In this document: positions 1 through 13,525 of the stretch, in pieces
How the letters are laid out: each line of letters opens with the position of its first letter
How positions within the stretch are numbered: the first letter of the stretch is position 1
NCBI GenBank assembly: GCA_003487005.1
Contig: DNFG01000220.1
Span: 1,864 to 15,388, forward strand
DNA from: Bryobacterales bacterium
GTDB lineage: Bacteria; Acidobacteriota; Terriglobia; Bryobacterales; Bryobacteraceae
Direction of reading: 5' to 3'
Length of the DNA: 13,525 nt
Notes under the pieces: model-generated
Seen by the model: only the letters and a program-made list of their open reading frames with translations
What the model was told of the DNA's origin: nothing
Databases searched by the model: none
Translations under genes and position numbers: made by a program

Positions 1-1085
1 CGCACGTTGCCCGGCCAGTCGTAGTCCATCACCAGTTCGAGCGTCCGTGGCGCCATCTTCTGCGGCGTCCGGTTCATCTGTTCCGCGAACTTCTGCAAAA
101 AATGGTTCGCCAGCAGCGGGATGTCCTCCCGCCGCGCTCGCAAGGGAGGAATCTCGATGGCGAACACGTTCAGGCGGTAATACAAATCCGGCCGGAACTT
201 CTTCTCTTCGACCAGCGTCTCCAGCCGCTTGTTCGTCGCCGCAATGGCCCGGAAATCCACCTTGACCGCGTGGGAATCGCCCACCCGGACGATCTCCTTC
301 TCCTGCAAAACGCGCAACAGATCCGTCTGCGTCCGCAGACTGATGTCCGCGATCTCGTCCAGAAAGACGGTTCCGCCTTCGGCCACCTCGAACTTGCCTT
401 TCTTGCGCGCCTGCGCCCCGGTGAACGCGCCCTTTTCGTGCCCGAACAGTTCGCTTTCCAGCAGCGTCTCGGTCAGCGCGCCGCAGTGGATCACCACCAT
501 CGGATTGAACCGCCTCGGGCTGGCCGCGTGCACCGCCCGCGCCACCACTTCCTTGCCGGTCCCGCTCTCTCCCGTGATCAGCACCGTCGCGTCCGTCGGC
601 GCCACCGTCTCCACCAACTCCACCACGCGCTTCATCGCCGGACTCTGCCCGATCAGCGACGTCTCCGGGAAGATCTGCTTCAGATTCTCCCGCAACCGGA
701 CCACCTCCCGCGCCGCCGACCGGTGCGAGATCGCATTCGACACCAGATGGACCAGCTCATCCGGATCAAATGGCTTCGTGATGTAATCGTACGCGCCGTT
801 TTTCAGCGCTTTAACGGCTGTTTCGACGCTCGCGTAGCCGGTCATGATGATGACGGGCATCTCCGGATCCGCTTCCTTGAGCCTTGCCTGCAACTCGATG
901 CCGTCCACGCCGGGCATCTTGATATCGACCAGCGCCAGATCAAACCGGTCCGCCGCCATCCGCTCGAGCGCATGGTGCGCCCCAGGGCAGATTTCGACCT
1001 CGAAACCCTCGCTCTCGAACCACTTGCCGAGCGAATCGCGCACCACGGGATCGTCGTCCACGATCAGAATGTGCCCGCTGGTCAT
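1..1085 (-). CDS. Sigma-54-dependent response regulator, NtrC family (C-terminus cut off by window edge)
   Basis: A cytoplasmic two-component activator that, when phosphorylated, uses ATP to open sigma-54 promoter complexes. The first 361 residues are visible. The receiver domain (about 5-120) has the acidic pocket D10-D12, phosphoacceptor D54, T82 and K104. An AAA+ domain follows from about 143: Walker A GESGTGKE at 172-179, the sigma-54-contacting GAFTGA loop at 219-224, Walker B ending LDE at 242-244, and an arginine-finger region (RPDLYYRLNVF). The frame leaves the window in the WPGNVR region, so the end of AAA+ and the expected Fis-type HTH are missing. The start is fixed by an ATGA overlap with the stop of the upstream kinase gene, its probable partner. 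HCGAL replaces the usual NCGAL before the GAFTGA loop, a minor variation. A sigma-54 promoter lies at the head of this same operon. The family is certain; the target is inferred. Confidence 0.95.
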   Translation of the reverse strand, partial: MTSGHILIVDDDPVVRDSLGKWFESEGFEVEICPGAHHALERMAADRFDLALVDIKMPGVDGIELQARLKEADPEMPVIIMTGYASVETAVKALKNGAYDYITKPFDPDELVHLVSNAISHRSAAREVVRLRENLKQIFPETSLIGQSPAMKRVVELVETVAPTDATVLITGESGTGKEVVARAVHAASPRRFNPMVVIHCGALTETLLESELFGHEKGAFTGAQARKKGKFEVAEGGTVFLDEIADISLRTQTDLLRVLQEKEIVRVGDSHAVKVDFRAIAATNKRLETLVEEKKFRPDLYYRLNVFAIEIPPLRARREDIPLLANHFLQKFAEQMNRTPQKMAPRTLELVMDYDWPGNV

Positions 1086-2722
1086 GCGCTCTCTCCTTCC
1101 CGCGGCGCCGCCAGTCCGGCCGGCGCGCGCAACGGCAACTCCACGATGAACTTCGCCCCGGCCCCCACCTGGCTTTCCACCAGCAGCGCTCCACCATGCC
1201 GGTCCACGATCCCTTTCGCCACCGCCAGACCCAGGCCTGTCCGGTGCTGGTTCTCCTTCGTGCTGAAGAACGGCTCGAAGATCTTCTCCATCACATCCGC
1301 CGCGATCCCCGGCCCGTTGTCCAGCACCTCGATCCGGATCCCCTCACCCCGGTCCACGGCAGCCGTCCGGACCCGGATCTGGCCGCCCTGGCCGATCGCC
1401 TCGTTCGCATTCGCCAGCAGGATGATCAGGACCTGCTGGATCTGCGCCGGATCCCCCTGAATCTCCGGCAACTCCTCACTCAACTCTTCCACCAGTTCAA
1501 TCTGGCTCAACTCGAACTGATGCAGCATCAGCCGCGTCGCCTGCCGGATCACCGTATTTACGTTCACGGCCGCCAACTGCGGCGGTTTCTGCCGCGAGAA
1601 CGCCAGCAGGCTCTTCATCAACTCCCCGCAGCGTTTGCTCTCCCGCTCGATGATCTCGACATTCTCCCGCATTCGCGCCTTCGTCTTCGCGTCCGCCTCC
1701 AGCCGGTCGATATCCTTCAGCGTCAGCCGGGCGTAGGTCAACATCCCGAACAGCGGATTGTTCACTTCGTGGGCCACCGTCGCCGCCAGCCTCCCCAGGC
1801 TCGCCATCTTCTCGCTGGTCACCATGCCCCGGTGGGCCGTCTCCAGTTCGCTCGTTTTCTGTTGGACTCGCGACTCCAGCGTCTCCGCCCACTCCCTCAG
1901 CTTCGCGTGGGTCCGGTGAATTTCCGCCGCCATCGCGTTGAAGCTGCGCCCCAGCACCCCGAACTCGTCCTGGGTATCGACATGAATCCGGTGCGTGGTT
2001 TCCCCGCGCGTGAGTTTGATCGTGGCCGCGAACAACTCCCGCATCGGCCGGTGCACCACGAGCCACACAAACAGCAGGCTCAGAACGCTCATCACGCCCG
2101 CTGTCCCCAGCGTGAAGAGCGCCATCTGCGTCCGGTGCTCCACCAGTTGGGCATCCACGCCGGCCAGGTCCAGATGCGCGTCAATCACCCCCAGAATCCG
2201 CCGCGAGGCCGGATGCGCGTGGCATGCCGCGTTACTGCACTCGGGCTGGTTCTCGATTGGCCGGATCACCGCCAGCGTCCGCCGCCCGTCCGCGTTGCGG
2301 AAGATCCGCGCCCGGTCCCGGCGCGCCAGTTTGGTCAGAGGCTGCGCCTGAGCGTGGCAGGCGTAACACGCCTCCGCCGACTTGTCGACCATCGTGCCCG
2401 ACTCCGACGCTTCCGTCGAATGCTGAACCAGTCCGTCTTCATTGATGATCCGGAGCCGGCGAATGCCCGGCTCCTTCCCAATGTCCCGGATCATGGTGTA
2501 CAGACGCTCACGATCGTTCTTCAACATCGCGTCGTACGAGCTGAAGTGGACGATATCCGCCACCCGCTCCGCCGACAACAGCACGAGCGATTCGAGGTGC
2601 CGCTGTTCCAGCCGTTGCTGCAGATAGCCGTAGAGCCCGAAACACACGAGGACCGCCGCCACCAGCAGCACGGCCAGTTTCCCGGCCACGCTCACACGAC
2701 GCCCACTCGTGGCGGCGGCCAT
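1082..2722 (-). CDS. Membrane sensor histidine kinase with two c-type-heme-like motifs in its periplasmic sensor domain
   Basis: 546 aa. One membrane helix at about 14-34, a periplasmic domain at about 38-198, a second helix at about 201-223, then HAMP (about 224-275), a short coiled coil, HisKA and HATPase_c. The phosphoacceptor is H318 in the motif AHEVNNPL. The N box is ANANEA (437-442), the G1 box DNGPGIA begins at 468, and the F (PFFSTK) and G2 (GLGLA) boxes follow. The sensor domain holds CYACH (C119, C122, H123), a canonical c-heme motif, and CSNAACH (C162, C167, H168), a CX4CH variant. Covalent heme would make this a sensor of redox state or of a gas/nitrogen-oxide ligand; the ligand is inferred. 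Its start is 3 bp after the NrfD-family gene stop, and its stop overlaps the response regulator start. This packing ties sensing to the electron-transfer genes upstream. The kinase call is certain; heme attachment is likely but not shown. Confidence 0.95.
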   Translation of the reverse strand: MAAATSGRRVSVAGKLAVLLVAAVLVCFGLYGYLQQRLEQRHLESLVLLSAERVADIVHFSSYDAMLKNDRERLYTMIRDIGKEPGIRRLRIINEDGLVQHSTEASESGTMVDKSAEACYACHAQAQPLTKLARRDRARIFRNADGRRTLAVIRPIENQPECSNAACHAHPASRRILGVIDAHLDLAGVDAQLVEHRTQMALFTLGTAGVMSVLSLLFVWLVVHRPMRELFAATIKLTRGETTHRIHVDTQDEFGVLGRSFNAMAAEIHRTHAKLREWAETLESRVQQKTSELETAHRGMVTSEKMASLGRLAATVAHEVNNPLFGMLTYARLTLKDIDRLEADAKTKARMRENVEIIERESKRCGELMKSLLAFSRQKPPQLAAVNVNTVIRQATRLMLHQFELSQIELVEELSEELPEIQGDPAQIQQVLIILLANANEAIGQGGQIRVRTAAVDRGEGIRIEVLDNGPGIAADVMEKIFEPFFSTKENQHRTGLGLAVAKGIVDRHGGALLVESQVGAGAKFIVELPLRAPAGLAAPREGESA

Positions 2723-2725
2723 GGC

Positions 2726-3901
2726 TTAGTCCCCCGGCGTCGCCGCGGGCTGCAACTTGTCCGGCGCGCCTTCGGGATCTCCGGACTCGCTGTCGTGCAT
2801 CGGCTCGAACAACGGCAGATACTTCGCCGCCAGTTTGAAGATCGCGAATCCCGCCGCCACGATCGCGAGCGTGATCACCACTTCGGTCCACTTCGGGATG
2901 TACGTCACTCCGGAGGCGCGTTCCATGCCCGTCACGGCGATGTTCAGCCGGTTCACCAGGAATCCGAACAGGAACATCGTGACCGCCGCGTACATCGTGT
3001 GCGGGTTCTGCCGCGTCCGCTCCCGGAACAACAGCAGCATCGGCACCGCCATCAGCATGATCTCCAGCACGAACAGCCGGCTCTCCCAGCCCGGATCTTC
3101 CAGGGCAGCCCAGGCGCCGCGATGGTTCAGGTCGAGAAATCGCATCGTCAGATAACAGGCGATCACCACCGCCAGCACCCGCGACAGCTTCTGGATCAGC
3201 GGCCATTCCAGTTCCCGGCCGAAGGCCTTCGAGCTGTGCCAGCTCTCGAAAATCGTCATCGCCAGACCTACGCCGATCGCCGACACGTAGAAGAGGACCG
3301 GCAGCAGCGGCGTGTACCACAGCGTGTTCAATTTCCCGTTGGCGATCAGATACAGGCTGCCCAGCGAACTCTGGTGCAGCGTGGACAGAATCACGCCCAT
3401 GATGATGATCGGCAGCATCACGCCCTTCAGCACCCGCCGCGGCCGCTGCAGGCCCAGTTTCTCCAGAATCACCGGCAGAAACTCGAGGAACAGCACCGTC
3501 GTGTACAGCGTGACGCACCAGCCGACTTCAAACATCACCGAACGCGGATTCCACATGATGATCGGGTGCCAGACCCGGTGGGGCTGTCCCAGATCGAACA
3601 TCAGCGCCACCACCACCAGCACATAACCCAGGAACGCGGTCAAAATCGCCGGCCGGACCACCGGCTTGAACTCCTCCAGATGGAAGATGTGGACGATCGC
3701 CGCCAGCGTGAACCCGCCCGCCGCCAGACCGACTCCGCACAAGATGTCAAACCCGACCCAGATCCCCCAGGGGAACTGATCCGACAGGTTCGTCGCCCCG
3801 CCCAGCCCGTAGAAAATCCGGATGTAGGTGGCATACAGGCCCGCCACCATCAGGGCCGCGAAAACCCATTGCCAAAACGTCCGTGGCATGAAGCGGCTCA
3901 T
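2726..3901 (-). CDS. HybB/NrfD-family polytopic membrane subunit (quinone-interacting)
   Basis: 391 aa, about nine or ten transmembrane helices. It resembles the HybB branch of the NrfD/PsrC superfamily, integral subunits that exchange electrons between a four-cluster Fe-S protein and the quinone pool without binding heme. HybB-like hallmarks are DQFPWGIWVGFD (41-52) and LHQSSLGSLYLI (175-186). After the last helix the tail (about 366-391) is acidic and low in complexity. The start at 3901 is chosen over an upstream in-frame ATG at 3952 because GGAGG lies just before it and because it forms an ATGA overlap with the stop of the ferredoxin gene. The upstream start would add 17 Arg/Gly-rich residues inside that gene. 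The partner is clearly the adjacent ferredoxin. No hydrogenase subunits are nearby, so the name hybB would overstate the function. Confidence 0.92.
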   Translation of the reverse strand: MSRFMPRTFWQWVFAALMVAGLYATYIRIFYGLGGATNLSDQFPWGIWVGFDILCGVGLAAGGFTLAAIVHIFHLEEFKPVVRPAILTAFLGYVLVVVALMFDLGQPHRVWHPIIMWNPRSVMFEVGWCVTLYTTVLFLEFLPVILEKLGLQRPRRVLKGVMLPIIIMGVILSTLHQSSLGSLYLIANGKLNTLWYTPLLPVLFYVSAIGVGLAMTIFESWHSSKAFGRELEWPLIQKLSRVLAVVIACYLTMRFLDLNHRGAWAALEDPGWESRLFVLEIMLMAVPMLLLFRERTRQNPHTMYAAVTMFLFGFLVNRLNIAVTGMERASGVTYIPKWTEVVITLAIVAAGFAIFKLAAKYLPLFEPMHDSESGDPEGAPDKLQPAATPGD

Positions 3902-4644
3902 TTCTCGCCTCCTTCGGCCGCCGCCACTTCCTCGCGGCGATGCGTGATCCAATAAACTCCGCTCATCAGCACCGTGCCCAGAATCACCACGTCCGGCACG
4001 TGTTTCAGCGCCGCCCAGGTGTAGGTGGGCAGCGACTCCTTCGGCAGGTTCCCCGGCATGTTGAGCTTTTCGTAGGGCTCCGAACCGATCATCAGCACGC
4101 TCGTCCCGCCCACTTCCTCCATCCCGTAGATCGCCGGATGATACTCGCCCGGGCTCGCCTCCATCCGCTTTTTCGCAATCGCGATCACTTCGTCCCGCTC
4201 ACCCGTGATCGTCGCCTCGAACGGGCAAGCCTCGGAACAGTGGGTGATCCCGCCGAACGACACCCGCTCCGCGCACATGTCGCACTTCTTCACCAGCGGC
4301 AGCCGCTCGTTCCATTCGTACGATGGCACCTGGAACGGGCACGCCATCATGCAATACCGGCAGCCCATGCACTTCTCCGGGTGGTACACCACCGGGCCCG
4401 CCGCCGTCTTCTCGAACGCCGCCACCGGACACACGCTCGCGCAAGCCGGGTCTATGCAGTGCATACACAGCTTGCGCGAAAATTTCTCTCCGTGGGTCGT
4501 GATCGTGGTCAGTTTCTGCGCCGAAGTCTTTTCCGTCCCGGCAATCTCGTCGGTGTAAGGCAGCTTCCACTTTTCAGAGCAAGCTGCCTCACAGAGACGG
4601 CATCCAACACAGAGGACATTGTCGTATAGAACCGCTTTGGCCAT
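3898..4644 (-). CDS. Four-[4Fe-4S] ferredoxin-like electron-transfer subunit with C-terminal membrane helix (HybA/FdnH type)
   Basis: 248 aa. Sixteen cysteines in four clusters: C12/C15/C18/C22, C60/C63/C68/C72, C92/C95/C98/C102 and C121/C124/C136/C140, the pattern of DmsB/HybA/FdnH subunits that wire a catalytic subunit to a membrane quinone-reactive partner. The segment after the clusters (EVGGTSVL near 177-184) and a single membrane helix (about 213-232) point to the HybA/FdnH subgroup. There is no Tat signal: the first Cys motif begins at residue 12. The Fe-S domain is therefore either cytoplasmic or carried across with an unseen Tat-exported partner, as FdnH is. A strong ribosome site, GAGGGAGG, precedes the ATG. 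The stop overlaps the start of the NrfD-family gene. It lies 92 bp after the GcvH-like gene; that gap holds an imperfect inverted repeat and a possible promoter. Confidence 0.93.
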   Translation of the reverse strand: MAKAVLYDNVLCVGCRLCEAACSEKWKLPYTDEIAGTEKTSAQKLTTITTHGEKFSRKLCMHCIDPACASVCPVAAFEKTAAGPVVYHPEKCMGCRYCMMACPFQVPSYEWNERLPLVKKCDMCAERVSFGGITHCSEACPFEATITGERDEVIAIAKKRMEASPGEYHPAIYGMEEVGGTSVLMIGSEPYEKLNMPGNLPKESLPTYTWAALKHVPDVVILGTVLMSGVYWITHRREEVAAAEGGEK

Positions 4645-4662
4645 CGAGGCCTCCCTCGTGAA

Positions 4663-4700
4663 TTCCAGACCAGTTTATCCTGATCTGTAGAAGAGTTCAA
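4663..4700 (-). promoter_or_regulatory. Possible sigma-70-type internal promoter for the ferredoxin gene
   Basis: On the minus strand, TTGAAC (4700-4695) and TAAACT (4677-4672) are separated by 17 bp, each matching the consensus at four of six positions. A start near 4665 would give a leader of about 20 nt containing the GAGGGAGG ribosome site. The match is only moderate, and read-through from the upstream sigma-54 promoter would make it unnecessary. Confidence 0.3.
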
Positions 4701-4725
4701 CACCTTTTTGTGTGAAACTCTACAG
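4685..4725. repeat. Imperfect inverted repeat between the GcvH-like and ferredoxin genes
   Basis: Outer arms CTGTAG and CTACAG pair perfectly. Inner arms AGTTCAACAC and GTGTGAAACT pair except for two central mismatches, and a 3-nt bulge sits on one side. The loop is CTTTTT. On the transcribed (minus) strand no U-run follows the stem, so a simple intrinsic terminator is unlikely. It could be an mRNA-processing or stabilising hairpin, or a binding site: the minus-strand part TGTTGAACTCTTCTACAG resembles the dyad upstream of the operon promoter (12 of 18 positions). Confidence 0.5.
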
Positions 4726-4736
4726 CACTCGCCTAG

Positions 4737-5405
4737 CTAGCTGAGGAAGAACTCTTCGGCCGCCTTCTTCCAGGTCTTCGCGTCCAGCGCGGCGGCAGGA
4801 TCAGCAACCGGTTCGCCACCATCAGCGGCCGTCGCACCAGCCAGCTGCGGCTGCAGGGCAAACAGCCGGTCCGCCGCTTCCTGCATCCACGACCGCACCA
4901 GATTCACCGGCAGCAGGTTGCGGGCCGGGCTGTCTTCGTCCGGCGAGAACACGTTCATCATCCAGCCTTTTCCGTAAGGTTCTTCCCGGAGCAGCGTGGG
5001 GTTGGTCAGCAGCGTGCTATTGATTTCAACAACTTCACCTTCCACCGGGCTCACGAGTTCGATCTTCTCGCCATTGCGAATGAAGCTCGCCACCTTCTGC
5101 CCCTGACGAACCCACTGGCCCGGCTTCGGCAGTTCGATCCGGTCCACCGGTCCCGCGAACGCCGCCGCGAAAGCGTCAGCACCTACGCGATTGACATTCT
5201 TCCGTTCCCGCTGGACCCAGGTGTGACCAGGGTGATACCGGACATTCGACGGAACGGCAAATCCACCAACCACTTCCGGATCGCTTTCCGCCATCACGGG
5301 CTGCAGTTCGGTTTCGGTCGCAATCTTCGGCGCCTTCTTCCGGTTCAGAACCAGGTCAATCACGATAAACGTTGCGAAAGTGAGAACGAGTAAGAGAACG
5401 GTCAT
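4737..5405 (-). CDS. Membrane-anchored GcvH-like (lipoyl-domain fold) protein, first gene of the redox operon
   Basis: 222 aa. An N-terminal membrane helix (about 2-20) is followed by RKK, which by the positive-inside rule puts the rest in the cytoplasm. Residues about 50-152 follow the glycine-cleavage H-protein pattern: HPGHTWV (58-64), a VGADAFA segment, ELPKPGQWV, SPVEGEVVEIN (119-129) and EEPYGKGWMMNV (141-152). In true GcvH the lipoylated lysine lies seven residues before the xPVxGEV motif. Here that position is glycine, and the nearest lysine, K114, is two residues off, so lipoylation is doubtful. The tail beyond 155 is Ala/Pro-rich and ends in a short amphipathic stretch. No other glycine-cleavage gene is nearby, and the neighbours are redox and sensor genes, so a glycine-cleavage role is unlikely. 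AGAGGAG lies 8 nt before the ATG, and a sigma-54 promoter lies upstream. Confidence 0.85.
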   Translation of the reverse strand: MTVLLLVLTFATFIVIDLVLNRKKAPKIATETELQPVMAESDPEVVGGFAVPSNVRYHPGHTWVQRERKNVNRVGADAFAAAFAGPVDRIELPKPGQWVRQGQKVASFIRNGEKIELVSPVEGEVVEINSTLLTNPTLLREEPYGKGWMMNVFSPDEDSPARNLLPVNLVRSWMQEAADRLFALQPQLAGATAADGGEPVADPAAALDAKTWKKAAEEFFLS

Positions 5406-5458
5406 GGCTTTAACTCCTCTGTGTTGTATTCACCGGCTTCATCCGGCACCCTTCTATA

Positions 5459-5475
5459 TGCAGGTCGCGTGCCAA
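5459..5475 (-). promoter_or_regulatory. Sigma-54 (RpoN) -24/-12 promoter of the redox operon
   Basis: The minus strand reads TTGGCACGCGACCTGCA. It matches TGGCACG-N4-TTGCW at all but one defined position (CTGCA for TTGCA), and the invariant GG and GC are exactly 10 bp apart. Transcription would begin near 5448, leaving a leader of about 43 nt with an AGAGGAG ribosome site before the GcvH-like ATG at 5405. The operon's last visible gene encodes a sigma-54 activator, which makes the assignment coherent. Confidence 0.82.
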
Positions 5476-5539: not shown

Positions 5540-5558
5540 CTGTTGCGATTCTCAACAG
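5540..5558. promoter_or_regulatory. Dyad operator, probable enhancer site (UAS) for the sigma-54 activator
   Basis: CTGTTGCGATTCTCAACAG is a 19-bp dyad in which eight of nine symmetric base pairs match around a central T. Its centre lies about 100 bp upstream of the predicted sigma-54 start, a normal distance for an NtrC-family enhancer. Assignment to the response regulator of this operon is inference from position. Confidence 0.55.
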
Positions 5559-5617: not shown

Positions 5618-5660
5618 CAGTGTTGAAAAATCCGATACCCAGTGTTGTGAATTTCAACGC
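5618..5660. promoter_or_regulatory. Second, weaker enhancer-like element with a CAGTGTTG direct repeat
   Basis: CAGTGTTG occurs at 5618-5625 and again at 5640-5647, a 22-bp period or about two helical turns. The second copy continues into TGTTGTGAATTTCAAC, sharing the TGTTG-N7-CAAC layout of the dyad at 5540-5558 (13 of 19 positions identical). It lies about 200 bp upstream of the sigma-54 start and overlaps the stop codon of the acetyltransferase gene. Confidence 0.4.
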
Positions 5661-6142
5661 TTTTCGGGCTCATCGGGCCCGCCCAGCACGAAATCCACCT
5701 CGAACATCTGATACGGGGTCCGCTTCATCCCCACACGCTCGTATGTGCCCTGCGCCCGGGCATTATCCTTCTCCACATACAACCGCAACCCGCACACCCC
5801 CGGCGTCGAACGCGCCAACTGCTCCACATGCGCGTACAATGCCTTGAAAACCCCTCGTGACCGGTATTCCGGCTCTACCCAGACGCTTTGAATCCACCAG
5901 AATACCCCGTTGCGCCAGTCCGACCACTCGTAGGTGATCATCATCTGCCCGGCGCGCCGCCCGTCCACCTCGGCAAGATAATACAGTCCGCGGGAACGGT
6001 CGTCGAACAGCGCGTGGACGCCATCCCGCAACCGGTCCAGATCGAGCGACAAATGCTCTGTTTCCAAAGCCATCGCGGCATTGCCGCGAACCAGAAACTC
6101 GGCGTCGGCGGGCGTGGCGAGGCGAATCTGCGGTGCAACCAT
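5654..6142 (-). CDS. GNAT family N-acetyltransferase
   Basis: 162 aa, the usual size of a single GNAT domain, soluble and cytoplasmic. It would transfer acetyl from acetyl-CoA to an amine; the substrate cannot be told. Motif A is at about 87-104 (SVWVEPEYRSRGVFKALY), with the acetyl-CoA loop RSRGVF, a variant in which the second small residue of R-x-x-G-x-G/A is Phe. Motif B is LYVEKDNARAQGTYERVGMK (121-140), with the Asn and Tyr typical of the family. The N-terminus IRLATPADAEFL is the standard opening. GGAGAGG just precedes the ATG. It starts 10 bp after the stop of the propeller gene, so the two are probably cotranscribed. Confidence 0.93.
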   Translation of the reverse strand: MVAPQIRLATPADAEFLVRGNAAMALETEHLSLDLDRLRDGVHALFDDRSRGLYYLAEVDGRRAGQMMITYEWSDWRNGVFWWIQSVWVEPEYRSRGVFKALYAHVEQLARSTPGVCGLRLYVEKDNARAQGTYERVGMKRTPYQMFEVDFVLGGPDEPEKR

Positions 6143-6152
6143 CCTCTCCAGA

Positions 6153-7193
6153 CTAACTGAGACGCCGCAGTTTGGTCACCCGCCCGACTTCCACCCACTC
6201 AACGACGAAGATATTGCCGTCCCTGTCGAAACAAGCCGAGTGAGGGCAGACGAACTTGCCCGGGATGAACTTCTCTCTCGGCTCGCGCCGCAGTTTGCCC
6301 CAGGTTCCCGAAGGATCGTCCCCAAGATGGGCGACCAGGCGGTCCTGCCCGTCGAGCAGCGTCACTCGCGCTTCGAGATCCGGAATCAGCAGCAGTTCCC
6401 CCTGGATATCGAAGTGACACGGCAGTTTCACCGTCCCTTCGGCCGAAAAATGGTGATGCCGCCCGTCCAGCGTGAAATACTGCAAGCGCCGGTTCGTGCG
6501 ATCCGCCACCAGAATCAGCGGTTCGCCGGCCCGCCGGCGATCCAGCCAGATTCCGTGCGGGCTGTTCAGTTGCCCCGCCTCTTTCCCCTTGCCGCCGAAT
6601 GTGCGGATGTACTCGCCCCTGGCGTTGTACTGGATCACGAAGCTGGATCCATAGCCGTCCGCCACATAAACATCGCCGTTCGGCGCCACGGTCAGGTTGG
6701 TCGGGCTGTACTTGACCGCCGGATTGCCGTCCGCGTCCACCGGATACTCCGGCGACACCTTCGGGTAGCCCAGAGTCCAGACCTCTTGGCCCTTCAGCGT
6801 CGCCTTCACGACGATATTCCGTTTCGTGTCACACAGATAGAGGAATTCGTCCGAGCCTTCCCGGTTGATGTGCAGCCCGTGCGCGCCTCCCTTGAAGTCC
6901 CGCCCCCAGCTCTTCACAAACTTCCCCGCCGGATCAAAAACCACCATCGAATCATCGCTTTCGCTGGTCGAATGCACCGTGTGGTGGATGTAAATCAGCC
7001 CCTGCGAGTCCACACAAACGCCATGCACGTTGCCGTAGCGGATCGTCCGCGGCAGTTCGCCCCAATCATGGATCACTTCGTACTGAAATGCGCCCTCGCC
7101 AACAATCGGGCGCTTCAGTCCACTCTTGTCCTGTGCGCCCAAAATCGCGGGCGCGGTGGCAAAAAAGGCGCGGCGGCTCAACTTCAAGGACAT
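6153..7193 (-). CDS. Tat-exported NHL-repeat / six-bladed beta-propeller protein
   Basis: 346 aa. The N-terminus LSRRAFFATAPAILGAQ (5-21) is a twin-arginine signal (R7, R8) with a short hydrophobic core, so the protein should be exported folded. The rest is a run of propeller blades with NHL-style signatures, for example VHGVCVDSQGLIYI, NLTVAPNGDVYVADGYG, GQLNSPHGIWLD and ACFDRDGNIFVVEW, the last near the C-terminus. Such proteins resemble the propeller found with peptidylglycine-lyase-like enzymes and are common in environmental bacteria, mostly with unknown ligands. The start at 7193 is preferred over the in-frame ATG at 7208 because GGAGGG lies 7 nt before it; the longer start would sit inside that ribosome site. 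The gene is divergent from the copper-efflux operon and upstream of the acetyltransferase. Confidence 0.92.
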   Translation of the reverse strand: MSLKLSRRAFFATAPAILGAQDKSGLKRPIVGEGAFQYEVIHDWGELPRTIRYGNVHGVCVDSQGLIYIHHTVHSTSESDDSMVVFDPAGKFVKSWGRDFKGGAHGLHINREGSDEFLYLCDTKRNIVVKATLKGQEVWTLGYPKVSPEYPVDADGNPAVKYSPTNLTVAPNGDVYVADGYGSSFVIQYNARGEYIRTFGGKGKEAGQLNSPHGIWLDRRRAGEPLILVADRTNRRLQYFTLDGRHHHFSAEGTVKLPCHFDIQGELLLIPDLEARVTLLDGQDRLVAHLGDDPSGTWGKLRREPREKFIPGKFVCPHSACFDRDGNIFVVEWVEVGRVTKLRRLS

Positions 7194-7236
7194 CCCGGTT
7201 CCCTCCACATCGAATGAAGGTACTTTACCACGGTGT

Positions 7237-7662: not shown

Positions 7663-8907
7663 ATGCGTGTTCTTGCGCTCGTTTTGGCGTTTCTGCCGCT
7701 CGCGCAGGCCTCCGAACTCGAGGATCTGATTCAGCAGGCGCTGCGGCACAACCCGGAAATCCAGGCAGCACAGAAGCAACTCGAAGCCGCACGACAGCGC
7801 CCCGCGCAGGCTTCCAGTCTGCCTGATCCTATGTTTTCAGCCGGTTACGTCAGCATGGGCGGCCCGCTGCCGGGCCAGGGTCTCGGCCGGGAGCCGCTCG
7901 CCCGCCTCGGCTTCATGGCCTCGCAGATGTTCCCGGCTCCCGGCAAGCGCCGCCTTCGCGGCGCCATCGCCCTCAAGGAGGCATCGGAAGCCGAGCAGCA
8001 GTACTTCGCCGCCCAACTCGAGGTCGTCGCCCGCGTGAAGGCGGCGTGGCACGAACTGGCCTACTCGCACGAGGAACTCGGCGTGCTTGATCGTTCACGC
8101 GGCCTTCTCGAACGGATGCTGAAAGTTACCGAGGCACGCTACTCGACCGGCGAAGGCTCCCAGGCCGACCTCTTGCGTGCCCAGACCCAGTTAACGCTGC
8201 TCGAAACCCGCGCCGAGCGCGCCCGCCTCGCCATCGACAGCCGTGCCGCCGAATTGAACGCCCTCGCCGCCCGTCCGCTCGACACCCCGATCGCCCGCCC
8301 CTCCACGCCGCCGGTCCGCGAAATGGTCGTCTCGCTCGACCGACTTTACGAGCAGGCGCGCGCCTTCGCTCCGGTCCTCATCAAGAGGCAGCACGCCGTG
8401 GCGAAGACCGAACTCGCCCTGAACCTGGCCCGCAAGGAGGGCGCGATCGACTACACCATCGCCGGCGGTTACTCCACGATGGGCCGGATGGACAACCGCT
8501 GGGGCAACATGTACGAAGCCCGCGTCGATATCAATCTCCCCTTCTTCACGCGCGGCCGGCAGCGCGCAGCCATCGCCGAACAGGCCCACGAACGCGACCG
8601 CGCCCGCCGCGACTACCAGGCCGCCGGCAACGATCTCCTGTTCCGCATCAAGGACGATGCCCTGCTCAGCGCCACAGCCTGGCGCCTGCTCCGCCTCTAT
8701 GAATCCACGCTGATCCCCCAGGCGGCGCTGACCCTCGAAGCTTCGCTGCCTGCCTATGAAACGGGGCAGGCCGATTTCCCCGCCCTTCTCGCCAGCCTGA
8801 TGGCCGTGCTCGATTACGAACTCGAATACCATCGCGAACGCCTCGAATACCACCGGGCGCTGATCCGCCTCGAACAGGCTACCGGCCTCGAACTGGTGGA
8901 GGAATAA
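7663..8907 (+). CDS. TolC-family outer-membrane efflux channel (CusC-like by context)
   Basis: 414 aa. A Sec signal (cleavage probably after AQA, residue 16) is followed by two outer-membrane-efflux-protein repeats rich in long alpha-helix, for example the segments at about 20-50, 115-205 and 300-410. PNPE-like HNPEIQAAQKQLEAARQ opens the first repeat. It would form the outer-membrane tunnel of the tripartite pump. Unlike E. coli CusC there is no lipobox cysteine. AAGGAG lies 6 nt before the ATG. The adaptor gene follows after 4 bp, so the channel, adaptor and pump are one operon. Substrate assignment rests on the neighbours, not on this sequence. Confidence 0.92.
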   Translation: MRVLALVLAFLPLAQASELEDLIQQALRHNPEIQAAQKQLEAARQRPAQASSLPDPMFSAGYVSMGGPLPGQGLGREPLARLGFMASQMFPAPGKRRLRGAIALKEASEAEQQYFAAQLEVVARVKAAWHELAYSHEELGVLDRSRGLLERMLKVTEARYSTGEGSQADLLRAQTQLTLLETRAERARLAIDSRAAELNALAARPLDTPIARPSTPPVREMVVSLDRLYEQARAFAPVLIKRQHAVAKTELALNLARKEGAIDYTIAGGYSTMGRMDNRWGNMYEARVDINLPFFTRGRQRAAIAEQAHERDRARRDYQAAGNDLLFRIKDDALLSATAWRLLRLYESTLIPQAALTLEASLPAYETGQADFPALLASLMAVLDYELEYHRERLEYHRALIRLEQATGLELVEE

Positions 8908-8911
8908 CGCC

Positions 8912-10279
8912 ATGACAAAGAAGATCCTACTTGTTCTGGCCATGATCGCCGCTTTCGTCGCCGGCATGACCCAGCACCGCTGGTGGGGCGCCGGCCACGA
9001 CGACCACGCCCACTCGCACGATCACAAATCCGGCTACCACTGCCCGATGCACCCCGGCTACAAGTCCGATGGCCCCGGGAAATGCGGCATCTGCGGCATG
9101 GAACTCGTGCCCGATTCCGCGCCCGCGGCGGATGTTCCGAAGGGCAAAATCCTCTACTATCGCGACCCGCAGGCCCCCGATTACCGCAGCGACCAACCCG
9201 GCCTGAACCCCGAAACCGGCAACGACCTCGAACCCGTCTATGACGAACCCGGCCCCGGCCATGTCGCGATCAGCACGGAAAAACAGCAGTGGATCGGCGT
9301 CCGCACGCAACTCGTCGAGCGGATGACCGTCAGTGACTCGCTGCGCGTGCCCGGACGCGTCGCCGTCGATGAAACCCGCCTGACCCGCGTCTCTTCGCGC
9401 ACGATGGGCTGGATCGACAAAGTCCACGCCGACTTCACCGGCCGCCTCGTCAAACGGGGCGAACCCCTGCTGACCCTCTACAGCCCCGAACTGACCGCCT
9501 CCCAGCAGGAGTTTCTCCTCGCCCGCAAAGCCCGCGCCACGCTGCGCGAATCCAGCGTCGCCGCCGTCCGCGCCGCCAACGAATCGATGGTCGAGGCCGC
9601 CCGCGAACGACTTCGCCACCACTGGGGGCTCGACGAAGCCGCTCTCCGCCGGCTCGAAGAGTCCGGCGAAGTGCAGCGGACGAGCACTCTCTATGCTCCG
9701 TCCACCGGCTTCATCGTCTCCCGGAACGCCTTCCCCGGCGCGCGGGTGACGCCCGAAACCGAACTCTATTCGCTCGCCGACCTGAGCCGCGTCTGGGTCA
9801 ACGCCGATGTCTTCGAGACGGACGCCGGTCGCATTCGCCTCGGGCAGTCCGCCCGGGTGGAGCCCGCTTACGCGCCCGGCCGCTCCCTGATGGCCCGGGT
9901 CAGCTACATCTTCCCGCGCGTCGATCCGCAGTCCCGGACGATGCCCGTCCGTCTCGAACTGGATAACCCCAACTTCACGCTGAAACCCGATCAATTCATG
10001 AACGTCGAATTCGCCTTCGCTTCCACGCCGAGGCTCGTGGTCCCCGAGGAAGCCATCCTCGACGGCGGCTTGACCCAAACCGTTTACGTTGATCGAGGCG
10101 AAGGCATCTTCGAACCCCGCCGCGTCGAGACCGGCGAACGCTTCGATGGCCGCGTCGAAATCGTCAGTGGCCTGAAGGAGGGCGAGCGCGTCGTCGTCTC
10201 GGGCGTCTTCCTGCTCGATAGCGAGAGCAAACTGAAGAACCCGTCAGCCGCCTCGGGCGGGGCGCACCAGCATGATTAA
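8912..10279 (+). CDS. cusB: CusB-type RND periplasmic adaptor with N-terminal heavy-metal-binding domain
   Basis: 455 aa. An N-terminal membrane anchor or signal (about 4-20) is followed by a His-rich stretch (H29, H32, H34, H36, H38) and a heavy-metal-binding domain at 42-67 with C44, M46, H47, C58, C61 and M63. A second, related unit begins at LYYRDPQAPDYRSD (81-94), but its usual MHP and CGM ligand motifs are changed to QAP and TGN. The rest follows the adaptor plan: a lipoyl-like hybrid half (about 160-192, GWIDKVHADFTGRLVKRGEPL), a helical hairpin, the second lipoyl half (LYAPSTGFIVSRNAFPGARV) and beta-barrel and membrane-proximal domains. It bridges pump and channel and can pass Cu(I)/Ag(I) to the pump. 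GGAGG lies 9 nt before the ATG. Its stop overlaps the pump start by 8 bp. Confidence 0.94.
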   Translation: MTKKILLVLAMIAAFVAGMTQHRWWGAGHDDHAHSHDHKSGYHCPMHPGYKSDGPGKCGICGMELVPDSAPAADVPKGKILYYRDPQAPDYRSDQPGLNPETGNDLEPVYDEPGPGHVAISTEKQQWIGVRTQLVERMTVSDSLRVPGRVAVDETRLTRVSSRTMGWIDKVHADFTGRLVKRGEPLLTLYSPELTASQQEFLLARKARATLRESSVAAVRAANESMVEAARERLRHHWGLDEAALRRLEESGEVQRTSTLYAPSTGFIVSRNAFPGARVTPETELYSLADLSRVWVNADVFETDAGRIRLGQSARVEPAYAPGRSLMARVSYIFPRVDPQSRTMPVRLELDNPNFTLKPDQFMNVEFAFASTPRLVVPEEAILDGGLTQTVYVDRGEGIFEPRRVETGERFDGRVEIVSGLKEGERVVVSGVFLLDSESKLKNPSAASGGAHQHD

Positions 10280-13200
10280 CCGCGTCATTCAGTTCTCCGC
10301 CGATCACAAGGGTCTCGTGCTGTTGTTCACCGCCGCGCTCTGCGCCCTCGGCTGGTGGAGCATGCACAACGTCGCCCTCGACGCCATCCCGGACCTCAGC
10401 GACACTCAGGTCATCATCTACGCCAAGTGGGAGCAAAGCCCCGACCTGATCGAGGACCAAGTCACTTACCCGATCGTCACCGCGCTCCTCGGCGCGCCAA
10501 AAGTGCGCACGGTGCGCGGACTCTCCGATTTCGGCGCCGCCTACATTTACGTCATCTTCGAGGATGGCACCGACATCTACTGGGCCCGCACGCGCACGCT
10601 CGAATATCTCAGCGGCGTGCAGGGCCGCCTCCCGAAGGGAGTCAGCGTCGAACTCGGCCCCGACGCCACCGGCCTCGGCTGGGTCTTCCAGTACGCCCTC
10701 GTGGACCGCTCCGGCCGCCAGGATCTCGCCCAACTCCGCTCGCTCCAGGACTGGTCCATCCGCTACCAGTTGCAGAGCGTCGAGGGCGTCGCCGAAGTCG
10801 CCGCTGTCGGCGGCTTCGTCAGGCAGTACCAGGTGCAGGTGGACCCGAACCGCCTCCGCGCCTACAATCTGCCGATGGACCGCGTCGTTGACGCTGTCCG
10901 CCAGGGCAACGCCGATGTCGGCGGACGTCTCGTCGAGTTCGCCGGCGCCGAGTACATGATCCGCGGCCGCGGCTATGCTCGTTCGGTCCGCGACCTCGAA
11001 CAGATCGCCGTCGCGGCCACCGAAAACGGCGTCCCCATTCGCGTCAAGGACGTCGGCCGCGTCACCCTCGGCCCCGATCTGCGCCGCGGCGTCGCCGACC
11101 TCGACGGCCAGGGCGATGTCGTCGGCGGCATCGTCGTCATGCGCCAGGGCGAGAACGCTCTCAAGGTGATCGACCGTGTGAAGGAGCGCCTCGACGCCAT
11201 CCGGCCCACGCTGCCCGAGGGCGTCGAGATCGTCACCACCTACGACCGCTCCGACCTGATTCTGCGTGCGATTGACAACCTCAAATGGACCGTGGCGGCG
11301 GAACTCCTGGTTGTCGTGATCGTCATCATGATCTTCCTCTGGCACCTGCCCAGCGCCGCGGTGCCCATCATCACGCTGCCCGCCGCCATCCTGATTTCGT
11401 TCATCGGCATGAAGTTCTTCAATGTCGAAGCCAACATCATGTCGCTCGGCGGCATCGCTATTGCCATCGGCGGCCTTGTGGACGCCGCAATTGTCGTCGT
11501 CGAACAGACCCACAAAAAACTCGAGGAATGGGAGGAGGCCGGACGCCCCGGACCCGCCGCCCACGCCATCGTCGCTGCCGTTCAGGAAGTCGGTCCGGCC
11601 AGCTTCTTCTCGCTGCTTGTGATCGCGGTTTCTTTCGTGCCCATACTTGCGCTGGAAGCCCAGGAAGGCCGCCTGTTCAAGCCGCTCGCTTACACGAAGA
11701 ACCTCGCCATGTTCGTCGCCGCGTTCCTGGCCATCACGCTCGACCCGGCCCTGCGGCTGATGTTCACCAGCACCAACCCGATCTTCGGCCGGATCCGGAG
11801 CGAAGCCCAGCACCCGGTCTCGCGCGTGCTCATGCGCTGGTATGAACCCGTCTGCCGCGCCGCACTGCGCCACCGCTATGCCGTGATCGGCGGCGCTCTG
11901 CTGATGGTGCTGGCCACTGTGCCCGTCTATCGCAAGCTCGGCAGCGAGTTCATGCCGCCCCTCGACGAAGGCTCGCTGCTCTACATGCCCACCACGCTGC
12001 CGGGCCTCTCGATCGGCGAAGCCGAACGCCTCCTCCAGATCCAGGACCGCCTGATCGCGCAATTCCCCGAGGTCGAACGCGTCTTCGGCAAGGCCGGCCG
12101 CGCCGATACCTCCACCGACCCCGCGCCGCTCTCGATGTTCGAAACCGTGATCCTGCTTAAACCCCAGAGCGAGTGGCGATCGAAACCAACCTGGTACTCC
12201 GAGTGGGCCCCCGAGTGGCTGAAACCGGCCCTCCGGCGCATCACGCCCGACCGGATCTCGCAGGAGGACCTGATCAATGAATTGAACGCGCGCGTCCAGA
12301 TCCCCGGTGTCTCCAATGCGTGGACCATGCCCATCAAGGCCCGGATCGACATGCTCACCACCGGCATCCGAACGCCCGTCGGCGTCAAAGTCAGTGGCGC
12401 GGACTACCGCGAAATCGACCGCCTCGCCGCGGATGTCGAGCGCGCCGTCCAGGCCGTTCCCGGTACGCGCAGCGTCTTCGCCGAACGTTCCGGCGGCGGA
12501 TGGTTCCTCGATTTCGTCTGGAAGCGCGAGGAACTGGCCCGCTACGGCCTGACCATCGACGAAGCCCAGATGGCCGTCACCAACGCCATCGGCGGCGAGA
12601 ACCTGACCACCACCGTCGAAGGCCGCGAACGCTATCCCGTCAACGTGCGCTACGCCCGCGATTTCCGCTCCACCCGCGCCGCCCTCGAAAACGTGCTCGT
12701 CCCCGTGATGGGCGGCATGACCCAGGTCCCCCTTCGCCAGTTGGCCGACGTTCGCGCCGAGGCCGGCCCCGCCATGTACCGCAATGAAGACGGCCTTCTG
12801 ACGGGCTATGTCTACATCGACATAGACACCTCCGACATCGGCGGCTACCTGGAGCGCGCCCGGGCCGCCGTCAGCAAGAACGTCACGATCACTCCCGGCT
12901 ATGGCCTCTCGTGGAGCGGCCAGTACGAAGCCATGGACCGCGCGGCCGAACGCCTGACCATCGTGGTGCCCGTCACCCTCGCTGTCATCCTGCTCCTCCT
13001 CTATCTGAATACGCGGTCCGGCGTGAAGACCGCCATCGTCCTGCTCGCCGTCCCCTTCTCCGCCATCGGCGCCGTCTGGCTGCTTTATCTGCTCGACTAC
13101 AACATGAGCATCGCCGTCTGGGTCGGCGTCCTCGCCCTGCTCGGCATCGATGCCGAAACCGGCGTCTTCATGCTGCTCTATCTCGATCTGGCCTACAAGA

Positions 13201-13525
13201 AAGCCGGCGAAGCCGGACGCCTGCGCAACAAGGCCGAGTTGCACGAAGCGATTGTTGAAGGCGCCGTCCGGCGCATTCGCCCGAAGTTCATGACCGTCGC
13301 CACCACCTTCATCGCCCTCACCCCCATTCTCTGGGCCCAGGGCACCGGAGCCGACGTCATGAAGCGCATCGCCGCTCCGATGGTCGGCGGCGTGTTCACC
13401 TCTTTTCTGCTCGAACTGGTGGTCTATCCCGCGATCTACGAGGTTTGGAAATGGCATTCGGAAGTCAAACGAAACGTCTCGGCGATGGCACATTTTAGGC
13501 GGTCCAGCGGCCAGATCGGAAGAGC
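10272..13525 (+). CDS. cusA: CusA-type heavy-metal RND efflux pump (stop not reached in window)
   Basis: 1084 codons are open to the window end. It is the inner-membrane proton-driven pump of the Cus system. The N-terminus MINRVIQFSADHKGLVLL, the PDLSDTQV segment and the two-half RND layout are typical. The three methionines that bind Cu(I)/Ag(I) in E. coli CusA (M573, M623, M672) align with M572 (LLYM), M622 (APLSM) and M694 (RIDM). The 22-residue shift of the third comes from an insert around WYSEWAPEWLKPALRR. Proton-relay acids are conserved: D404 in TM4 (GLVDAAIVVVE) and E962 in GIDAETG. Homology to CusA ends near residue 1061 (YPAIYEVWKW), so nearly all the protein is here. The last four codons are adapter sequence and the true stop is unknown. 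The start overlaps the adaptor's stop by 8 bp. Confidence 0.95.
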   Translation, partial: MINRVIQFSADHKGLVLLFTAALCALGWWSMHNVALDAIPDLSDTQVIIYAKWEQSPDLIEDQVTYPIVTALLGAPKVRTVRGLSDFGAAYIYVIFEDGTDIYWARTRTLEYLSGVQGRLPKGVSVELGPDATGLGWVFQYALVDRSGRQDLAQLRSLQDWSIRYQLQSVEGVAEVAAVGGFVRQYQVQVDPNRLRAYNLPMDRVVDAVRQGNADVGGRLVEFAGAEYMIRGRGYARSVRDLEQIAVAATENGVPIRVKDVGRVTLGPDLRRGVADLDGQGDVVGGIVVMRQGENALKVIDRVKERLDAIRPTLPEGVEIVTTYDRSDLILRAIDNLKWTVAAELLVVVIVIMIFLWHLPSAAVPIITLPAAILISFIGMKFFNVEANIMSLGGIAIAIGGLVDAAIVVVEQTHKKLEEWEEAGRPGPAAHAIVAAVQEVGPASFFSLLVIAVSFVPILALEAQEGRLFKPLAYTKNLAMFVAAFLAITLDPALRLMFTSTNPIFGRIRSEAQHPVSRVLMRWYEPVCRAALRHRYAVIGGALLMVLATVPVYRKLGSEFMPPLDEGSLLYMPTTLPGLSIGEAERLLQIQDRLIAQFPEVERVFGKAGRADTSTDPAPLSMFETVILLKPQSEWRSKPTWYSEWAPEWLKPALRRITPDRISQEDLINELNARVQIPGVSNAWTMPIKARIDMLTTGIRTPVGVKVSGADYREIDRLAADVERAVQAVPGTRSVFAERSGGGWFLDFVWKREELARYGLTIDEAQMAVTNAIGGENLTTTVEGRERYPVNVRYARDFRSTRAALENVLVPVMGGMTQVPLRQLADVRAEAGPAMYRNEDGLLTGYVYIDIDTSDIGGYLERARAAVSKNVTITPGYGLSWSGQYEAMDRAAERLTIVVPVTLAVILLLLYLNTRSGVKTAIVLLAVPFSAIGAVWLLYLLDYNMSIAVWVGVLALLGIDAETGVFMLLYLDLAYKKAGEAGRLRNKAELHEAIVEGAVRRIRPKFMTVATTFIALTPILWAQGTGADVMKRIAAPMVGGVFTSFLLELVVYPAIYEVWKWHSEVKRNVSAMAHFRRSSGQIGR
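13513..13525 (+). other. Illumina adapter remnant at the contig end
   Basis: The last 13 bases read AGATCGGAAGAGC, identical to the common start of Illumina TruSeq-type adapters in the read-through orientation. It follows the pump reading frame directly. Bases just before it may be genuine, but the 3' end of the contig should not be trusted. Confidence 0.9.

Follow-up and report, generated by a model that had tools for sequence, protein, structure and literature searches.

A heme-kinase-linked HybAB/HmcBC-like electron-transfer gene set with an archaemetzincin and no neighbouring catalytic subunit

The window analysed here, a stretch of 13,525 nucleotides from the genome of a Bryobacterales bacterium, carries on its minus strand (positions 3-5405) five genes in one apparent operon, encoding a GcvH-like protein, a HybA/HmcB-like iron-sulfur (FeS) protein, a HybB/HmcC-like NrfD membrane subunit, a sensor histidine kinase and a response regulator (RR). 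Past the window's left edge on the same contig, beyond the RR, lies a sixth gene, for an archaemetzincin (AMZ, M54 protease), and no catalytic subunit is found there. The gene set suggests a respiratory accessory that is self-contained and has so far gone undescribed, which we tentatively prefer to read as an inducible electron-transfer module without a dedicated catalytic subunit. A periplasmic redox or gas signal would be sensed by the kinase's Cache-like domain with its two c-hemes, and the kinase would phosphorylate the RR, which would bind dyads upstream of its own operon and switch that operon on together with sigma-54 RNA polymerase. The FeS protein and NrfD subunit may then move electrons, in one direction or the other, between menaquinone and a soluble carrier, perhaps ferredoxin, and protons may be moved as well, while the GcvH-like protein, which lacks the lipoate lysine, would act as a cytoplasmic membrane adapter and the archaemetzincin may trim or remove some component. 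The six genes are as follows.

3..1085, minus strand: sigma-54 RR (REC-AAA+; PF00072, PF00158), continuing past the window
1082..2722, minus strand: sensor histidine kinase, 546 aa, with Cache-like periplasmic domain, HAMP, HisKA and HATPase
2726..3901, minus strand: HybB/HmcC-type NrfD membrane subunit with 10 predicted TM helices (PF03916, 82.9 bits)
3898..4644, minus strand: HybA/HmcB-type protein for four [4Fe-4S] clusters, 248 aa (PF13247, Fer4_11; HmcB and HybA models)
4737..5405, minus strand: membrane-anchored GcvH-like protein, 222 aa (PF01597, GCV_H, 72.5 bits; predicted model; alignments)
L002 692-1267, minus strand: archaemetzincin, sixth gene, beyond the RR and outside the window

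Judging from the coordinates, the NrfD and FeS frames overlap by 4 bp, as do those of the kinase and RR; the NrfD subunit starts at the ATG at 3901, overlapping the FeS stop, and a longer TTG frame runs from 3952. The coordinates and domain matches confirm the compact five-gene operon, with its motifs and overlaps, that an earlier note had described, and the note's headline view of a HybAB-like pair under heme-kinase control with no catalytic enzyme is well supported. The five-gene order, whose conservation the note had wanted surveyed, is kept, within an identical order of all six genes, in 21 of the 27 loci L005-L031, so that the arrangement is above chance. Rearranged or split forms occur in L030 and L032-L038, in records labelled Gemmatimonadota, Nitrospinae, Syntrophaceae and Rokubacteria, and the window's own genome holds a second copy of the gene set. 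No description of the module was found in the literature searched, nor any paper joining archaemetzincin with NrfD or NrfD with GcvH; a search for NrfD, glycine cleavage and histidine kinase together gave a single result, unrelated by its title.

A catalytic subunit gene past the left edge, which the earlier note had named as counter-evidence, was found neither there nor in the 35 loci (577 kb), in which no HybC, HybO-part or molybdenum-enzyme match was found at E 1e-4; a catalytic partner adjoining the module was rejected for the loci examined. The FeS-NrfD pair might instead be the quinone-reactive part of a respiratory enzyme, with a Tat-borne catalytic subunit encoded elsewhere and the FeS protein hitchhiking on it, an arrangement that we judge unlikely. 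The earlier note's first alternative, a module shared by enzymes encoded elsewhere, may still apply. In keeping with the Tat-borne partner, the FeS protein (16 Cys, C-terminal TM helix) has no Tat signal of its own, unlike HybA, its best PDB match is 1kqf_B (FdnH), and the window's own genome has seven molybdopterin-domain matches that pass the cut-off, each of them on another contig. FdnH is likewise not known to have a signal of its own. In addition, K/R residues are more frequent on the C side of the FeS tail in 21 of 25 relatives, a count that leaves out L006, whose TM helix was misplaced by the script; the FeS protein of L032 is partly masked. Against hitchhiking, however, stands the lack of any catalytic gene near the module in all 35 loci, and the distant FeS versions of L033-L036 carry their own Tat signals and so need no carrier.

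The NrfD subunit belongs to its Pfam family (cut-off 25.8 bits), shares 114 of 379 residues with HybB, and gave nothing at E 0.01 in a sequence search of the PDB. An excerpt of PMC8076601 names 25 HybB functional (proton/quinone) residues, of which 17 are kept here. The NrfD subunit's predicted orientation is the same as in the lineages with Tat signals, although the hint for the window's own protein is weak, at a 3:3 tie. Together, this orientation and the K/R-rich C side of the FeS protein argue for a periplasmic FeS domain, out of the reach of a cytoplasmic ferredoxin. A more specific version of the module, as a ferredoxin-linked quinone oxidoreductase free of a catalytic subunit, with its own dedicated di-heme two-component system, a GcvH-like adapter free of lipoate, regulated archaemetzincin proteolysis and one enhancer code shared by several phyla, is in this full form doubtful. 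In favour of ferredoxin as the carrier, L023, L026, L027 and L029 have a 2-oxoacid:ferredoxin oxidoreductase cluster no more than 5 kb from the GcvH gene, and another such cluster is found in L033; against it, all of L005-L022 are without this neighbour.

The kinase carries two c-heme motifs, CYACH (CX2CH, residue 119) and CSNAACH (CX4CH, residue 162), both located between two predicted TM helices. Both motifs occur in 25 of 29 kinases (a count confined to those scoring above 150), and the CX4CH cysteines are invariant across 24 aligned kinases. Against Pfam, the sensor domain reached 20.0 bits with Mcp40H (cut-off 27) and 11.9 bits with the Tll0287-like family, both below cut-off, with CXXCH present. 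We take the Mcp40H sensor to be a heme-Cache domain of the NO-sensing kind. A Foldseek search with the whole kinase returned mostly kinases among the matches listed, and the VIA-align rows covered mostly residues 286-533, so the sensor fold is not placed structurally.

Two other readings turn on this sensor. In one, the module would sense the quinone pool and hand its own redox state to the kinase, electron transfer serving signalling alone; such a role would suit the close linkage, in most loci, between kinase and module and the lack of a nearby catalytic subunit. Yet the kinase already has a conserved di-heme sensor, the HybB residues kept (as listed in the excerpt cited above) are arguably beyond a sensor's needs, and in the genome of L038 the kinase, RR and archaemetzincin lie on a different contig from the FeS-NrfD pair, so that we hold this reading decidedly improbable. 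In that genome, though, the pair is a distant one, its NrfD 30% identical, and the kinase is without heme motifs. The earlier note's second alternative, that the kinase reads the module's redox state, found no direct support: a heme sensor domain is built into the kinase itself, and the regulatory arrow that is visible runs from the RR to the operon, by way of the sigma-54 promoter and candidate dyads. The other reading is a defence against redox stress or NO, in which the heme kinase would detect NO or a similar signal, the module would re-route electrons and the archaemetzincin would clear damaged protein. According to an excerpt of PMC12889525, heme-Cache domains fused to signalling modules acted as NO, not oxygen, sensors, and the kinase's sensor distantly resembles Mcp40H. 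This match is weak, however, the second heme motif falls outside the family's description as excerpted, and no NO-detoxifying gene is conspicuous among the conserved neighbours, which are annotated in part, all of which leaves NO defence very unlikely.

Control of the module by its own RR is supported by the DNA upstream of the operon. The RR has the domains of an NtrC-type sigma-54 activator: REC, AAA+ with sigma-54 interaction, and an HTH end that lies past a masked stretch which the gene enters, in another frame (L002 1283-1531). Candidate enhancer dyads resembling TGTTGARATTYTCAACA are found upstream of the module, together with the window's best-scoring sigma-54 site, which begins 69 nt before the gcvH-like ATG.

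5459..5474, minus strand: sigma-54 (-24/-12) promoter-like site, TGGCACGCGACCTGCA
5643..5659, minus strand: candidate enhancer dyad 1, CGTTGAAATTCACAACA
5621..5637, minus strand: candidate enhancer dyad 2, TATCGGATTTTTCAACA, spaced 22 bp from the first dyad
5541..5557, minus strand: candidate enhancer dyad 3, TGTTGAGAATCGCAACA
4686..4702, no strand assigned: additional dyad between the gcvH-like and FeS genes, TGTAGAAGAGTTCAACA as read on the plus strand (L095 position 728)

Of the 28 module promoters, 24 had a sigma-54 site scoring at least 8, compared with 9.7% of the 4,000 control windows; for a score of at least 10 the figures were 11 promoters and 0.3% of windows. Nineteen promoters contained 48 dyads, compared with a mean of 3.2 over 30 shuffles, and sites in the gcvH-FeS gap recur in 10 of 18 relatives. 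A dyad matrix trained on Acidobacteria-like promoters was applied to the held-out loci L023-L038 (231 kb) and, as controls, to L039-L083 (677 kb), 45 loci that have GcvH-like genes without the module. Above 15 bits it found 22 sites in the held-out set against six in the controls, and above 13 bits 31 against 29; some of the held-out loci are Acidobacteria, in which promoter matches may reflect common descent, and the control loci are unmatched in composition. The dyads found in held-out loci, which include other phylum labels, support the proposal that the RR controls its own module through these candidate sites.

Dyads also occur elsewhere in the genomes. A 62-aa ferredoxin gene is preceded by a dyad and a sigma-54 site in the window's own genome and in that of L005, with a homologue in just 3 of 18 relatives (E 1e-8). 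Citrate synthase is a lead as a possible RR target, going by an exact dyad in the own genome, a dyad pair in that of L005 and weak sites (11.5-13.4 bits) in those of L016, L020 and L022; in the others of the 18 genomes no site above 11 bits lies upstream of it. As a general RR target VOR finds no support in the own genome, the 10 kb examined at its VOR cluster being free of dyads above 11 bits. A two-dyad pattern matched 11 places and its backward control four forward and four reverse, counts near enough that the three-mismatch two-dyad matches are mostly chance, and a further dyad-pattern search, including the citrate synthase site, matched six places against one in the control. A near-dyad on C171, inside open frames, is probably chance.

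The earlier note mentions neither the archaemetzincin, which lies outside the window, nor the loss of the lipoyl lysine, the lack of a Tat signal on the FeS protein or the promoter. NrfD-type subunits are usually taken as anchors of a catalytic enzyme; here the set recurs under several phylum labels with none nearby, equipped with a heme sensor and a promoter code of its own and linked to an archaemetzincin. With the dyad code the regulon can be searched for directly, and the link between kinase and module can be put directly to the test. The ferredoxin-linked accessory reading, if true, would give bacterial archaemetzincin a physiological setting and define a new class of respiratory accessory.

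Among known systems, Escherichia coli hydrogenase-2 has in HybA and HybB the same pairing of a four-cluster FeS protein with a C-terminal TM helix and a 10-TM NrfD subunit. The module differs from it in having no HybC/HybO-like gene in 35 loci and no Tat signal on its FeS protein, and in adding its own two-component system, GcvH-like protein and archaemetzincin; the HybA model (182 bits, cut-off 263) and the HybB-type PRK10881 stay below cut-off. The best NCBIfam models are those of the Hmc complex of sulfate reducers, HmcB (244 bits) and HmcC (319 bits), but both scores are under the cut-offs of 420 and 550, and Hmc membership was rejected, with no HmcA-like multiheme cytochrome in the window. 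Across 34 loci, six open reading frames have at least three CXXCH motifs, L036 contributing three, L030 two and L035 one, with none in the window; some are probably not real cytochrome genes, and one of the two in L030 is the frame matched as NrfD. Heme-Cache sensors (sCache_heme, Tll0287/GSU0582) are likewise signalling proteins whose Cache-like domain, bearing CXXCH, lies in the periplasm, as described in the excerpted PMC12889525, whereas the kinase here falls below the Pfam cut-off and has the second motif, CX4CH. With the glycine cleavage H protein, the GcvH-like protein shares its fold: the structure model (mean pLDDT 84.8) matches GcvH structures, with TMt values of 0.72-0.89 to 21 GcvH chains among the matches listed. 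It differs in its layout, an N-terminal TM anchor followed by the GcvH domain and a C-terminal extension of helices, and in the lipoyl lysine, whose position is G112 in the alignment to 3hgb and which the family alignment lacks in 29 of 30 sequences (K in one), and a lipoate-carrier role was rejected because this lysine is gone. The archaemetzincin agrees with peptidase M54 in family score (NF033823, 148 bits, cut-off 145) and in its zinc motif (HEXXH..G..C-X4-C), whose alignment to 3lmc is gap-free. For this family, of whose biological importance 'very little is known' according to an excerpt of PMC3427221, standalone copies exist too, whereas the copy described here is operon-linked to a sigma-54 RR.

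The source draft assembly (4.47 Mb, 527 contigs, 84% complete) carries the window at C524:1864-15388, and Bryobacteraceae MAGs are the closest named relatives among the matches listed for its GcvH-like protein. The genes of the module are given below in transcription order, continuing past the window's left edge into the adjoining contig stretch L002.

4737-5405, minus strand: GcvH-like gene, first in transcription order
3898-4644, minus strand: FeS gene, second
2726-3901, minus strand: nrfD/hybB-like gene, third
1082-2722, minus strand: histidine kinase gene, fourth
from 1085 and out of the window, minus strand: sigma-54 response regulator gene, fifth
L002 1283-1531: HTH-bearing end, beyond the regulator's masked stretch and in a different frame from the regulator
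L002 692-1267: archaemetzincin gene, beyond the HTH-bearing end
L002, after the archaemetzincin gene: partial ORF, read as VWA-like

The regulator frame enters a masked stretch past the window edge. The archaemetzincin passes the cut-offs of both NF033823 (148 bits, cut-off 145) and PF07998 (80.1 bits, cut-off 24.4), and may act on a component of the module.

The gene content and order of this module, its promoter-like site and its dyads are all seen in the sequence and in comparison with relatives. A species-representative collection scanned with the GcvH-like protein yielded at least 79 loci (80 of 91 matches kept), whose gene order was read from phmmer on all ORFs. The six genes are consecutive on one strand in 21 of the 27 loci L005-L031 (L005-L022 and L027-L029). 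Elsewhere in this range the contig stops just past the GcvH-like gene (L026, L031), the gene after the GcvH-like one is not FeS (L023, L024, L025), or the module is rearranged (L030). The genomes of L023 and L025 carry FeS, NrfD, kinase and regulator genes in that order on a separate contig, which continues into an archaemetzincin in L025 and ends before any in L023, while those of L024, L026 and L031 have no NrfD match at E 1e-15. In L032-L038, labelled Gemmatimonadota, Nitrospinae, Syntrophaceae, Rokubacteria, Proteobacteria, Gemmatimonadales and Desulfobacterium, the module is rearranged or split, several loci having two or three GcvH-like genes; in the other 45 loci a GcvH-like gene occurs without the module. 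The sets in L012 (titled Arcobacter) and L030 (titled Riflebacteria) resemble Acidobacteria ones, and these bins may be mislabelled.

The source genome holds a second, divergent full set (contig C450, L130 1308-7822), di-heme kinase included, with FeS-NrfD-GcvH-like opposite kinase-archaemetzincin-regulator. At this locus just two dyad-like sites exceed 11 bits, at 13.6 and 14.4; one falls within the kinase gene and the other lies 1.7 kb past it. M54 matches occur in 52 of 149 Acidobacteriota genomes sampled; among the best-scoring 30 M54 loci, a sigma-54 regulator adjoins the archaemetzincin in 18, and the eight best-scoring all belong to the 12 without one.

The window's best sigma-54 site begins 69 nt before the GcvH-like ATG. 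Across the -120 to -25 region, sites scoring at least 8 occur in 24 of 28 promoters versus 9.7% of 4,000 control windows, and sites scoring at least 10 in 11 of 28 versus 0.3%; L021 has none in this stretch. Upstream of the site in the window lie dyads at -254, -232 and -152, to which the response regulator would bind. The pattern TGTTG-N7-CAACA with at most two mismatches was found 48 times in 19 promoters (300 bp each) versus a mean of 3.2 and a maximum of 7 in 30 shuffles; altered spacing or arms gave 1 to 7 matches, and at three mismatches the counts were 80 versus 23. An extra dyad lies between the GcvH-like and FeS genes (window 4686-4702), and 10 of 18 relatives have one in the same gap.

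A weight matrix trained on the same 19 promoters, whose matches there are circular, found 22 sites above 15 bits in L023-L038 (231 kb, outside training) versus 6 in the control loci L039-L083 (677 kb, not matched in composition); above 13 bits the counts were 31 versus 29. The 22 sites are spread over 13 of the 16 loci, and 12 fall in L032-L038, under other phylum labels, one of them (L032, 20201) 5 kb away from the module. For example, L033 has three dyad sites between its regulator and GcvH genes, L034 three ahead of its first GcvH gene, and L035 two flanking the regulator end; in the genome of L037 three (17.9, 13.7 and 13.6 bits) precede the FeS gene. L036 and L038, whose kinases lack heme motifs, have no site above 15 bits.

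Within the source genome the two-dyad pattern occurs at 11 places, including the operon at two mismatches and a citrate synthase promoter at three, and the single-dyad pattern is exact only at these two. The citrate synthase dyad (22.3 bits, exact; L099 1500-1516 on C76, 123-139 bp before the gene) is the strongest of the pattern matches there, and the genome of L005 also has a dyad pair before its citrate synthase gene. A sigma-54 site, with a dyad 70 bp upstream, precedes a 62-aa ferredoxin gene (L088 1431-1532, C319); both are kept in the genome of L005 (L199). From these sequence patterns, citrate synthase and the ferredoxin are leads as regulator targets.

Both CX2CH and CX4CH are present in 25 of 29 kinase homologues (each above 150 bits); those of L018 and L021 have CX4CH alone, and those of L036 and L038 neither. 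In an alignment of 24 kinases that left out these four loci, C119, C122, H123, C162 and C167 do not vary and H168 is almost invariant. We read the helix/strand order of the predicted sensor as Cache-like, with the heme motifs in two insertions; the model has a mean pLDDT of 77, lower near the first heme motif, and a pTM of 0.38, and the Pfam Mcp40H sensor scored 20.0 bits, under its cut-off of 27. Such a kinase would sense a redox or gas signal. Just past the kinase in L036 (15180-17857) are ORFs with 11 and 4 CXXCH motifs.

Neither E. coli HybC, a part of the HybO sequence, nor any of seven molybdopterin-type proteins from the source genome gave a tblastn match at E 1e-4 in 35 loci (577 kb); only HybA, HybB and ActB matched, ActB at FeS gene positions among the matches listed. 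ORFs with at least three CXXCH motifs occur in 3 of 34 loci. Few neighbours are shared. The clearest is a VOR-type 2-oxoacid:ferredoxin oxidoreductase cluster with a CoA-transferase, less than 5 kb from the GcvH gene in L023, L026, L027 and L029; the cluster immediately follows the GcvH gene in L023, and its first gene is also in L024. It is absent from all of L005-L022, L025 and L028; L033 has another oxidoreductase, and the source genome's own VOR cluster (C228) has no dyad above 11 bits in the 10 kb covered. The GNAT and NHL-repeat genes upstream of the module (window 5654-7208) are kept only in L006, L007 and L010 among 18 close relatives, some with contigs short upstream. Window 7663-13523, plus strand, is probably a heavy-metal efflux operon: it encodes an outer-membrane efflux protein, a CusB-like adaptor whose score is under the cut-off, and a large pump labelled RND-type from its ORF.

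Electrons would move between a soluble carrier and quinone. We have modest confidence that the carrier is ferredoxin, because the neighbours behind this proposal occur in a minority of loci and the topology hints run against it. The FeS protein has 16 Cys; no Tat signal was seen in the FeS proteins of the Acidobacteria-like set and L030, and those of L033-L036 have twin-arginine signals. The FeS tail carries more K/R on its C side in 21 of 25 relatives, a count without L006; L005, L028, L029 and L030 show a tie, as does the window. An N-in orientation is predicted for 14 of 15 NrfD proteins, that of L032 being weakly reversed. On these tail and NrfD topology predictions, the side of the membrane faced by the FeS domain is a genuine puzzle.

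The predicted model of the GcvH-like protein resembles GcvH structures, with G112 at the lipoyl position, which is K in 1 of 30 sequences. NrfD is identical to E. coli HybB at 114 of 379 aligned residues. It shares 17 of 25 functional HybB residues named in PMC8076601 (D58, R89, Y99, D109, S129, E133, Y141, E148, E155, H184, S186, S187, S190, K198, R265, E291 and R329); E268 is replaced by D, and T63, Y77, Y84, H85, S95, S105 and H200 are not kept. The six-gene combination is undescribed in the literature searched, where subscription journals were thinly covered, and the lipoate-free GcvH-like adapter, di-heme kinase sensor and shared enhancer code are likewise unreported there; every part of the module is a member of, or lies near, a known family.
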